This document shows, piece by piece, positions 16,556 to 20,052 of a DNA stretch of 62,842 bases; position 1 is the first letter of the stretch, and every line of letters starts with the position of its first letter. The position numbers were made by a program, and so were the translations under genes. This DNA comes from Candidatus Alcyoniella australis (GTDB taxonomy: Bacteria > Lernaellota > Lernaellaia > JAVCCG01 > Alcyoniellaceae), in assembly GCA_030765605.1 (NCBI GenBank), contig JAVCCG010000126.1:1-62842 (forward strand). The letters run 5' to 3'. The notes under the pieces were generated by a model. The model worked only from the letters and a program-made list of their open reading frames with translations. It had not been told where the DNA came from and searched no databases.

Positions 16556-17665
16556 CTAAAGTTCGCGCAGCATGGCTTTCATCAGTCGCGAGCTCATCCC
16601 GCGCTCGTCGGTCATGCGTTTTAAAAGCCGGATTCCGCTGCGCGGCGTGTCATCGGCATAGCCCGGTCGCGGGACCATGCTCAATGCGCCCTGCTCGCAA
16701 CCAATGGCGCAAACTCCGCAGCCAATGCAGCGATCCGCATCGACCTGTCGCACTCCCTGCTCGTCCATGCTGATCGCATCGACCCAACAACGCTGTGCGC
16801 AAATGCCGCAATCCTCGCAGCGTTCCAACTCGATCTGCGCCACCATACTCGAGGGCACCATACCGCGTTCGCGACCCATCTTCGCCAGCGCCCCGAGCGT
16901 CACGCAGCAGCAGCCGCAGCAGTTGCAGAGAATCAGGCTGTGGCTGTCGCAGTTCAGCGCGGCGTGCACCAACCCGGCCTGCGCCGCCTGGTGCAGCACC
17001 TCGCGCGCCTGGCCTGCGGAGATCTGTCGCGCAAAGCCGTTCTGGATCATCAGCACGGCAAAGGAGTTGATCGACAGGCAGGTCTCAATCGGCATCTCGC
17101 AGTTGTGCTCGGCGACGCGACAGGCGCAGTTGCCCAATGAGATTTTCCAGGCGCCCTCCACGATGCGCTCGACGTGGTCGCGGGTGAGAATCTTTTGTTG
17201 CGGGGCGATGGATTGCTGGACCGGCACCACGCGTTGGGGCAGCGTGGCCTGGCCGATCAACTCCGGCGTGAGGTGCTCGCGTTTGTAGCGCGACCACAGT
17301 TGCTGCAGCTCGCGCTTGACCTCGGGCGGATAGTTGTCGTCCTTCATAAATGTGAACTCGAAAAATCCGGGCATCAAGGGCAGCAGCGCGTACAGATTGC
17401 GACCCAGCAGCCGCGCGCGCGCGATCACCCCGCGCTCCGCCAGCTGGGCCAAACGTTGCGTAGCGTGCTCGACCTCGACTCCCGCCCGGCGGGCGATCGA
17501 GCGCGCGCCGTGGAGCACCGGCATGTGCCCCAGGCTCAGCAGCAGCTCGGCGTCTCCGGGCTCGAGGTAGATATCGAGAATGCGGTCCATCTCCTCGCAG
17601 GCAGCGAAGCGCACCGGCGCGATGCTCAGATGCTCGAGCAATCGATCGTTGCGCCCGGGGCTCAT
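16556..17665 (-). CDS. Cysteine-rich 4Fe-4S ferredoxin-type protein with winged-helix-like N-terminus
   Basis: A 369-residue protein. The chosen ATG (17665) overlaps the hypB stop as ATGA. Residues about 30-105 look like a winged helix (ARSIARRAGVEVEHATQRL) with an archaeal/MarR-like pattern. A central cysteine block holds CACR (Cys180, 182), Cys189 and Cys196, then CNCCGCCC (247-254). The C-terminus has two classical 4Fe-4S motifs, CEDCGICAQRC (283-293) and CIGCGVCAIGC (313-323). It may be an electron carrier or redox-sensing factor; coupling to hypB suggests a hydrogenase-related job, but that is inference. I know similar ferredoxins in deltaproteobacteria without an assigned function. Confidence 0.7.
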   Translation of the reverse strand: MSPGRNDRLLEHLSIAPVRFAACEEMDRILDIYLEPGDAELLLSLGHMPVLHGARSIARRAGVEVEHATQRLAQLAERGVIARARLLGRNLYALLPLMPGFFEFTFMKDDNYPPEVKRELQQLWSRYKREHLTPELIGQATLPQRVVPVQQSIAPQQKILTRDHVERIVEGAWKISLGNCACRVAEHNCEMPIETCLSINSFAVLMIQNGFARQISAGQAREVLHQAAQAGLVHAALNCDSHSLILCNCCGCCCVTLGALAKMGRERGMVPSSMVAQIELERCEDCGICAQRCWVDAISMDEQGVRQVDADRCIGCGVCAIGCEQGALSMVPRPGYADDTPRSGIRLLKRMTDERGMSSRLMKAMLREL

Positions 17666-18324
17666 GACGCGCTCTTGATGCGCTGCGTCAACCACTCGAT
17701 CCAGAGTTCGAGCCCCTGCTGCTTGCGGCAGCTCAGCTCGAAAATCTCCATCTTGGGATTGAGCGCGAGCACCGCCTCGCGGCAGGCGCTCACGTCGAAG
17801 TCGGTGTAGGGCAGCAGGTCGATTTTGTTCAGTGCCAGCACTTCGGTCTGGGTGAACATCAGCGGATACTTCAGCGGCTTGTCGTGTCCCTCGGCCACGG
17901 AGAGCACCATGCCGCGGCAGTTCTCGCCAAGTTGGAACTCGGCGGGACAGACCAGGTTGCCCACGTTCTCGACGATCAGCAGGTCAAGCTCGTCCAATTC
18001 GAGTTGGTCCACCGCACGACCGAGCATCGCGGCGTCGAGGTGGCACGCGCCGTGGGTGTTGATTTGCAGCGCTCGTCCGCCGGCGGCCTCTACGCGTTCG
18101 GCGTCGATCTTCGAGGTGACGTCGCCCTCGATCACCGCGGTGCGGATCTGCGCGGGCAGGCGCTTGAGCGTCTGGACCACCAGGCTGGTCTTGCCCGCAC
18201 CGGGCGAGGACATCAGGTTGAGCACGAAGACTCCGGACCGGGCGAAGCGCGCGGCGAGCTGCTGCGCGTCCGCGACGTTCTGCTTGAGGATCGGCTCACG
18301 CAAATCGATTACTTTTACCGTCAC
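17662..18324 (-). CDS. hypB: Hydrogenase maturation nickel-insertion GTPase HypB
   Basis: A 220-residue SIMIBI-class GTPase that, with HypA, delivers nickel to [NiFe] hydrogenase (or urease) precursors. The P-loop SPGAGKTS is at 40-47; EGDVTSKIDAERV and ENVGNLVCP with the metal-site Cys follow, and NKIDLL is the base-recognition motif. There is no His-rich N-terminal nickel-storage tail, so it is the short form. It lies 9 bases downstream of hypA and overlaps the ferredoxin gene by 4 bases. Confidence 0.96.
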   Translation of the reverse strand: MTVKVIDLREPILKQNVADAQQLAARFARSGVFVLNLMSSPGAGKTSLVVQTLKRLPAQIRTAVIEGDVTSKIDAERVEAAGGRALQINTHGACHLDAAMLGRAVDQLELDELDLLIVENVGNLVCPAEFQLGENCRGMVLSVAEGHDKPLKYPLMFTQTEVLALNKIDLLPYTDFDVSACREAVLALNPKMEIFELSCRKQQGLELWIEWLTQRIKSAS

Positions 18325-18333
18325 CGCTGCTCC

Positions 18334-18681
18334 CTATTCAATGGCGATCGATTCCACGGTGTACTCGCGGCCGGTGACGATCGCGGATTCGCGGCTGCCG
18401 CACTGCGGGCACGGCGCGCCGATGCTCTGTCGGTCGTAGTTCCACTGCGCATCACACTGACGGCAGCGCATCAGGCCCGGCGGCCGCTCGATCTCGATTT
18501 TTGCTCCTTGGGCGATGCTCCCCTGGGCGAGCATCTCGAAGTAGCGTTCGACCCACTGGTCGACCAAGTCTGTCAACGCGCCGATCCGCAGGTTGATTTT
18601 CACCACGCGAACCGCGCTGTTGACCCGTGCGTGCTCAATCACGATTTCGAAAATGCTGCGGACCACCGGCAATTCGTGCAT
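18334..18681 (-). CDS. hypA: Hydrogenase maturation nickel metallochaperone HypA
   Basis: A 115-residue nickel chaperone. I start it at the ATG giving MHELPVV because HypA needs an N-terminal Met-His for nickel binding; longer frames are therefore wrong. The zinc site is CRQC (Cys73, Cys76) with CPQC (Cys91, Cys94). It is first in the hypA-hypB-ferredoxin operon. There is no Shine-Dalgarno before the ATG, and the best promoter would start transcription at or next to it, so the message may be leaderless. No hydrogenase structural gene is in the window. Confidence 0.95.
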   Translation of the reverse strand: MHELPVVRSIFEIVIEHARVNSAVRVVKINLRIGALTDLVDQWVERYFEMLAQGSIAQGAKIEIERPPGLMRCRQCDAQWNYDRQSIGAPCPQCGSRESAIVTGREYTVESIAIE

Positions 18682-18726: not shown

Positions 18727-18756
18727 TTGTGGTCAGCCCGTTGCGAACAGTACAAT
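18727..18756 (+). promoter_or_regulatory. Possible promoter of the RuBisCO-like gene
   Basis: TTGTGG (18727-18732), 18-base spacer, TACAAT (18751-18756). The -10 covers an in-frame ATG at 18755, which argues for the ATG at 18788 as the real start. The -35 is weak. Confidence 0.3.
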
Positions 18757-18787
18757 GCCGCTCGATCACCCCATCGTACGCGACGTC

Positions 18788-19909
18788 ATGCAAGCATCCG
18801 AACGGTTTCAGGTCAGATACCGCCTACAGGCGGCAGCCGACGACGCCCAGCGCATCGCCGAGCAGATCTGCCTGGAGCAAACCGTGGAGGTCGTGCCGCA
18901 GTTGGCCGCGGACCATGCGATTCAACAACAGATCGTCGGTCGCATCCAGCGCCTGACCACTATCGACGATTCGACCACCGACGCGCTTATCAGCTACCCC
19001 GCGCAGATCGCGGACCATAACCTGCCGCAGTTGCTCAACGTGCTGTTCGGCAACATCTCGCTGCAATCGGGGATCAGGGTTGTGGAGCTCGAGCTGCCGC
19101 AATCAATGCTCGATGCGCTTCCCGGTCCGCGTTTCGGGGTGACCGGCCTGCGCGAGCTGGTCAACGTGCACGACCGGCCGCTACTCGCCGCGGTGCTCAA
19201 GCCCATGGGGCGCAGCCCCTCCCAGCTCGCGGACTACGCCCACCAATTCGCCCTGGGCGGAATCGATCTGATTAAGGACGACCACGGCTTGGCCGACCAA
19301 CGCTTCTGTCCGTTCGAGGAACGGGTCGAGCGCTGCGCCGCGGCGGTGGCGGAGGCCAACGCGCAGACCGGCGGCAACGCGCTGTACGCAGCCAACTTGA
19401 TCGCGCCCTGCGACAGACTGATCCAACGCGCCCATCGCGCGAAGCAGCTCGGCGCGCGCGGTCTGGTTCTCGCACCGATGATCCTCGGACTTGATTGGCT
19501 GCGCGCCCTGGCAACGGACCGCGAACTGCGGCTGCCGCTGATCGCTCACCCCGGACTCAGCGGCTCGTTCGTCAACCCGCCGCAGCACGGCATCGCCCCG
19601 GGCGTGCTGCTGGGTACGCTGTTCCGACTGGCCGGGGCCGACGTCTCGATCTTCCCCAGCTTTGACGGCCGCTTCGGATTATCAAAGCAGACTTGCATGC
19701 AGATCGCTGCGGCCTGCTCGGCGCCCCTTGGCGACAAGCGTCCGAGCATGCCCGGCCCGGCGGGCGGAGTGCGCCTGGATAACGTCCCGGCCAAGCTCGA
19801 GGCCTACGGCCTTGATCACCTGCTGCTGGTCGGCTCGGATCTCTACGTCCGCTCGCACGACCTGACAGCCAACGCCCGCGAGCTGGTGGAGAAAATCAGC
19901 GGGCGCTGA
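18788..19909 (+). CDS. RuBisCO-like protein (form IV)
   Basis: A 373-residue member of the RuBisCO large-subunit superfamily (384 if the ATG at 18755 is used). It has the small N-terminal domain (RFQVRYRL start) and a TIM barrel. The Lys175 equivalent is in AVLKPMG (Lys138). The carbamylated Lys201 region reads DLIKDDHGLADQ (Lys163, Asp164, Asp165), with His where RuBisCO has Glu204. Phosphate-loop regions AHPGLSG, PSFDGRFG and GPAGGV are seen, but the loop-6 Lys motif of true RuBisCO is not. It is therefore not a CO2-fixing enzyme. Relatives act on phosphorylated keto-sugars, such as methylthioribulose-1-phosphate or 3-oxoisoapionate-4-phosphate; the subgroup is undecided. Confidence 0.88.
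   Translation: MQASERFQVRYRLQAAADDAQRIAEQICLEQTVEVVPQLAADHAIQQQIVGRIQRLTTIDDSTTDALISYPAQIADHNLPQLLNVLFGNISLQSGIRVVELELPQSMLDALPGPRFGVTGLRELVNVHDRPLLAAVLKPMGRSPSQLADYAHQFALGGIDLIKDDHGLADQRFCPFEERVERCAAAVAEANAQTGGNALYAANLIAPCDRLIQRAHRAKQLGARGLVLAPMILGLDWLRALATDRELRLPLIAHPGLSGSFVNPPQHGIAPGVLLGTLFRLAGADVSIFPSFDGRFGLSKQTCMQIAAACSAPLGDKRPSMPGPAGGVRLDNVPAKLEAYGLDHLLLVGSDLYVRSHDLTANARELVEKISGR

Positions 19910-19976: not shown

Positions 19977-20052
<76 letters not shown>

Follow-up and report, generated by a model that had tools for sequence, protein, structure and literature searches.

A RuBisCO-like protein of Candidatus Alcyoniella australis belongs to the KDDHG clade and is a predicted 5-methylthioribulose-1-phosphate isomerase

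Two RuBisCO-like proteins (RLPs), RLP1 and RLP2, are described in Rhodopseudomonas palustris (PMC5893883). In that description RLP1 is a DeepYkr protein with 5-methylthioribulose-1-phosphate (MTRu-1-P) 1,3-isomerase activity, producing 1-methylthioxylulose-5-phosphate both in vitro and in vivo, and RLP2 is without such activity. The RLP of R. rubrum is like RLP1 an MTRu-1-P 1,3-isomerase of the DeepYkr clade, and both belong to the MTA-isoprenoid shunt. MtnW of Bacillus and Geobacillus, the DK-MTP-1-P enolase of Bacillus-type methionine salvage, shares with the protein studied here the RuBisCO fold and the equivalents of K175, K201 and D203. The decarboxylase OiaX, acting on 3-oxo-isoapionate-4-phosphate, has the RuBisCO superfamily in common with it.

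The window analysed here is the whole stretch of 62,842 nucleotides from contig JAVCCG010000126.1. It encodes an RLP on the forward strand, the open reading frame stopping at position 19909. The start at 18788 given in the earlier note is an in-frame ATG; an alternative in-frame ATG upstream, at 18755, yields a protein of 384 aa (18755..19909), and the conserved region of its clade starts near residue 16-17 of this form, which is used for residue numbers unless stated otherwise. The Pfam model RuBisCO_large matched with 78 bits (cut-off 30.1). The reading frame is intact, and its normal codon bias (83% GC at the third position versus 44% at position 2) is that of a real gene. The divergent neighbour on the reverse strand is HypA (18334..18678), followed by a HypB-type cobW-family GTPase (17662..18324, reverse strand); together with a 4Fe-4S protein they form a reverse-strand run at 16556-18678. 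The next gene downstream of the RLP is a tRNA-Ala(ggc) (19977..20052, forward strand), and a tRNA-Leu also lies downstream on this strand. HypA, the GTPase and the tRNA-Ala have no part in the RLP function. Promoter and terminator scans yielded little. No salvage or apionate gene adjoins the RLP in the window, so the isolation from such genes proposed in the earlier note stands locally; it does not extend to the genome, where MtnA and a methylthioadenosine (MTA) phosphorylase are present.

From the start at 18788 the metal motif reads K163-D164-D165-H166. The earlier note had seen there that Lys163-Asp164-Asp165 are kept, that Glu204 is replaced by His and Lys177 by Met, and that the loop-6 lysine motif is absent. 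An alignment of the window protein with 95 other RLP sequences, comprising 89 clade rows and seven outgroup rows, bore this out in every point. With the 384-aa numbering, the metal/carbamate motif K174-D175-D176-H177 is encoded at 19274..19285 (computed from start 18755), K149-P150-M151 at 19199..19207 and G305-R306-F307 at 19667..19675, all on the forward strand. We take K149 to be K175 of RuBisCO, Met151 to be K177, K174-D175-D176 to be K201 to D203, His177 to be E204 and Arg306 to be loop-6 K334. The K175 equivalent is thus kept and the carboxylase residues K177, E204 and K334 are all replaced.

Eighty of the clade rows came from a scan with two patterns, one of them including the His, and are the best 80 among 537 confirmed relatives. 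In this sample, His occupied the Glu204 position in 88 of the 89 clade rows, including the R. palustris structure 3QFW; the sole exception, from a Vibrio plasmid (L099), carried Asp, and all seven outgroup rows carried Glu. His was also found in seven of the eight rows fetched without patterns, three of which (3QFW, L003 and L005) belonged to the query alignment of the scan. Arg306-Phe307 was kept in 89/89 clade rows (again with 80 from the best 80 of 537), the outgroup having Lys at position 306 in five rows and Asn or Ser in two MtnW-type rows. Because His prevails in the clade and Glu in the outgroup, KDDHG marks the clade and not a single protein. A change private to the window protein is ruled out within this best-80-of-537 sample, and what looked anomalous is the usual mark of this clade, one member of which is characterised. 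The active-site pattern of the clade (K-P, KDDH, HP, GRF, Cys314 and PxGG) is present in the window protein, where His177 would be a metal ligand or an acid/base in place of Glu204, and Arg306 would stand in for the loop-6 Lys.

The closest solved relative was PDB 3qfw (E 3.8e-73), a Rubisco-like protein of R. palustris by its title. Since 2qyg is titled R. palustris rlp2 and two RLPs are described in this organism, 3qfw corresponds to RLP1 by elimination, as far as that description goes. The identity between the window protein and RLP1 is only 38-40%. A tree of the kind advocated in the earlier note was built from 96 rows, R. rubrum RLP not among them, by a quick IQ-TREE run with SH-aLRT as the only support measure and without bootstrap. 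The window protein fell in the 3QFW clade and apart from MtnW. The 89-row KDDHG clade, 80 rows of which are the best 80 of 537 relatives, was split from the seven other RLPs with an SH-aLRT support of 100. The window row lies within an 85-row group (support 89) in which 3QFW is nested deeper and outside of which fall L017, L058, L078 and L090. Cupin-linked rows flank it, namely the outer L058 and L078 and also L103, a neighbour of 3QFW. Its branch is long, and it did not group with L003, the RLP of the class-mate genome G003. As L003 sits with 3QFW instead, the descent of the RLP within the class is not simple. An AlphaFold model of the window protein (pLDDT 92.6) had 3qfw_B as its top Foldseek match (TM 0.87/0.95), and VIA-align gave tied values for MtnW 2zvi_B (Z 47.2) and 3qfw_B (Z 46.9). 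The fold comparison, made with this predicted structure, does not separate an isomerase from MtnW.

The host genome is 98% complete and has one RLP gene. A search for mtnA, a check put forward in the earlier note, detected the gene with 442 bits (cut-off 279), adjoining gatCAB by eye. An MTA phosphorylase, MtnP, was also present (TIGR01694, 322.5 bits, cut-off 274.85), and with both enzymes the isomerase substrate can be made. The presence of mtnA alone was rejected as a proof of the pathway, as it was found in 44/47 KDDHG genomes and also in 25/33 others (Fisher p 0.044). Acireductone dioxygenase (ARD, mtnD) was not found in the host genome, nor was an MtnB-like aldolase, the sole class II aldolase (Aldolase_II) being RhaD-like, of the rhamnulose-1-phosphate type (256.7 bits, cut-off 170). 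The genome thus shows no sign of the Bacillus route or of the DHAP shunt, and no rival user of the isomerase substrate was found among ARD and class II aldolases. A search of the genome for the cupin methylsulfurylase gave 63.7 bits as its highest score, a value in the range of a generic paralog. This weak cupin (G000:C74) was set aside as an unlikely candidate, as class-mates have a similar 56-60-bit paralog, which in G003 and G005 stands beside strong matches of 137.4 and 146.4 bits. Since the cupin acting on 1-methylthioxylulose-5-phosphate was not found, the genome was not assigned to the MTA-isoprenoid shunt. The split transketolase that neighbours the RLP in relatives was likewise not found in the host genome, where the best half-match (158.9 bits) was a full-length DXS-like protein, labelled by eye. 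The earlier note left the substrate open and named, as evidence that would speak against this, clear membership of a characterised clade with matching pathway genes in the genome. The place in the 3QFW clade, with MtnA and MTA phosphorylase in the genome, largely supplies such evidence, and the substrate is much less open now; for the next step, neither a cupin methylsulfurylase nor a cassette transketolase was found.

The gene context was compared in 80 genome loci, the best 80 of the 537 confirmed relatives. Within this sample, the C-terminal half of a split transketolase was present in 51/80 stretches and any half in 53/80. The C-half lay less than 300 bases from the RLP on the same strand in 45/80 loci, and in 40/66 when the count was limited to loci having 2500 or more bases upstream. 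Where present, the transketolase was usually located just upstream of the RLP, sometimes with mtnK-mtnA; mtnA was within 3.5 kb on the same strand in 8/80 loci of the same best 80 of 537. The order mtnK-mtnA-transketolase halves-RLP occurred on annotated plasmids of Pararhizobium and Mariluticola, and a Ponticoccus plasmid carried mtnA and the trio of transketolase halves and RLP. On this last plasmid (Ponticoccus alexandrii, L101), a molybdopterin oxidoreductase and an amidohydrolase take part in the operon-like run. Other loci were associated with the cupin. An RLP-cupin pair was present on an annotated Terrarubrum plasmid, and on a Nitrospirae MAG contig (L078:9893-11614) the RLP and a methylsulfurylase-like cupin constitute one 573-aa open reading frame with no stop between the domains. 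In the L034 stretch the RLP was accompanied by the cupin and MetA, along with an O-acetylhomoserine sulfhydrylase-like gene that is truncated where the contig ends. In G003 and G005, of the class of the host, the cupin adjoins such a sulfhydrylase-like gene, the G005 copy scoring 484.4 bits, slightly below the cut-off of 495.1.

Several loci deserve a separate mention. In G010, a methylsulfurylase-type cupin (L119, G010:C17:150712-151104, 154.5 bits) adjoins by eye an OAH sulfhydrylase-like gene, and no RLP was found there with the window protein as query. The KDDHG RLP of G005 (L005/L095) is broken into two frames, one with match 15-131 and the other with match 128-337, by a frameshift or an assembly error. 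In G001, also of the class of the host, a KDDE MtnW-like RLP (L006) is followed, by eye, by MtnX-like and MtnB-like ORFs, and the class therefore holds both salvage types. The most divergent clade member, L099 on a Vibrio nigripulchritudo plasmid, reads KEDD for KDDH and adjoins a split transketolase and an FGGY kinase, without mtnK/mtnA; it possibly acts on another substrate.

We consider it likely that the window protein is a DeepYkr-type, metal-dependent sugar-phosphate isomerase, acting as a 1,3-isomerase on MTRu-1-P, on 5-deoxyribulose-1-phosphate or on both. In the predicted pathway, MtnP and MtnA would convert MTA to MTRu-1-P, and the RLP would shift its carbonyl group from C2 to C4 through two enolisations in succession, with 1-methylthioxylulose-5-phosphate as the product. 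A plausible further substrate is 5-deoxyribulose-1-phosphate, derived from 5'-deoxyadenosine, which would be converted to DXP directly. The isomerase assignment is supported by the KDDHG clade and the kinship with R. palustris RLP1, with which the window protein shares the loop-6 Arg and the fold, and by a genome having mtnP, mtnA, a single RLP, no ARD and a RhaD-like aldolase only. It is also supported by the relatives, in which mtnA/mtnK are found with the RLP, or the cupin is fused to it, or the genome pairs the cupin with the sulfhydrylase-like gene (G003, G005). Counted against it were the absence of a cupin ortholog and of the cassette transketolase from a 98%-complete genome, the low identity to RLP1, whose cupin partner is neither adjacent here nor found in the host genome, the long branch, the fold tie and the general frequency of mtnA.

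The same evidence bears on other explanations. MtnW proteins were the second-best solved relatives (E 8.4e-58) with a fold Z equal to that of 3qfw, and two NCBIfam MtnW models matched at 262.8 and 214.7 bits. These scores are, however, far under the cut-offs of 409 and 513.6, the metal-site Glu of annotated MtnW (L100) and of the MtnW-like L006 is His in the window protein, the MtnW clade is split from the KDDHG clade with the support of 100, and neither ARD nor an MtnB-like aldolase accompanies the RLP in the genome. Identity with MtnW was rejected on the cut-offs and the missing partners, and a Bacillus-type enolase is very improbable. A gene that is in decay, or a moonlighting leftover, with no catalytic role at present, would agree with the isolation of the RLP, with the downstream enzyme not being found and with S302, D304 and S361, substitutions at otherwise conserved loop positions. 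Against this, the frame is intact and the codon bias normal, and the protein departs from near-invariant clade columns in only 4/80 cases versus 9/79 in the active R. palustris enzyme, which makes such a leftover very unlikely.

An action on a sugar phosphate outside the salvage of SAM by-products, such as an apionate-type or unknown pentulose phosphate, appeared less remote, while still unlikely. The lack of adjoining partner genes in the window, the next enzyme not being found in the host genome and the FGGY kinase beside L099 in place of mtnK/mtnA all fit with it. The OiaX model, on the contrary, reached 92.3 bits for a cut-off of 700, on which the apionate enzyme was rejected, 76/80 near-invariant clade columns are kept, and mtnP and mtnA are present together in the genome.

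The two partners of the RLP were then counted in 71 genomes, 38 with a KDDHG RLP and 33 without. A cupin was counted from 92 bits upwards, and a transketolase from 540 bits upwards or, when in two pieces, with 360 plus 185; these thresholds were set after seeing the score gap. Across the 71 genomes, cassette transketolase scores fell into two groups, one of 546-652 bits (with a broken copy giving 360 plus 185) and one not above 283, with nothing between. Among the 38 KDDHG genomes, 18 had the transketolase, 14 a strong cupin (92.8-217.4 bits), none both, and six neither (that of the host and those of L017, L038, L053, L061 and L069). Twelve of the 38 had been chosen for a partner already visible at their locus; for the other 26 the figures were 10, 10, 0 and 6. 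If these 26 genomes were independent, zero overlap would have a probability of 1.5e-3, but they are not, 6/10 of the transketolase genomes being planctomycetes. In the 33 genomes without KDDHG RLP, the cassette transketolase was never found, and three had a cupin scoring 92 bits or more. The two partners never occurring together is the pattern expected of alternative enzymes for one metabolite.

In 53 sequences of the transketolase N-half, two histidines of ordinary transketolases are lost, GH becoming GY and the GHP motif a conserved EMIGAEH; one of the two is kept by DXS also. One of these histidines contacts the C1 hydroxyl of the donor, and 1-methylthio- and 1-deoxyxylulose-5-phosphate have no C1 hydroxyl. 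The cassette transketolase probably acts on the RLP product. Shell-protein genes were close to the RLP in three loci (L033, L035 and L070) and at a distance of about 6 kb in L049, with EutN/CcmL-like genes in all four and a BMC domain in L035 and L070; these loci belong to Anaerolineae/Chloroflexi and spirochaetes. Their position beside RLP-transketolase genes would fit an aldehyde intermediate. We tentatively propose, at somewhat less than even chances, that in much of the clade the split thiamine enzyme replaces the cupin. It would cleave 1-methylthioxylulose-5-phosphate (or 1-deoxyxylulose-5-phosphate) to a methylthio-C2 (or acetyl) unit plus glyceraldehyde-3-phosphate, in some cases inside a bacterial microcompartment, as an oxygen-independent MTA/5'-deoxyadenosine shunt, and the genomes with neither partner would use the RLP to direct 5'-deoxyadenosine to DXP. 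SqwGH, described as a two-subunit transketolase of sulfoquinovose breakdown leaving a sulfur-bearing aldehyde (PMC11659671), is a precedent for a split transketolase cassette handling odd sulfur-bearing sugars. Compared by its description only, SqwGH has no link to RLP or MTA, unlike the cassette of the relatives. An RLP-transketolase route was not found in the open literature covered (PMC5893883, PMC6302742, PMC6079011, PMC10986504, PMC7895386, PMC7593272 and PMC11659671 among others), and it may exist elsewhere, as in subscription papers or bioRxiv preprints.

Taken alone, the finding in the window is modest: an RLP of a known kind with matching upstream genes in its genome. The split-transketolase variant among the relatives is the more surprising result. 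If true, it would mean that a route not found described serves many bacteria for the salvage of MTA or 5'-deoxyadenosine, candidate users among the relatives fetched being Clostridium ljungdahlii, Anaerolineae, spirochaetes and purple sulfur bacteria.
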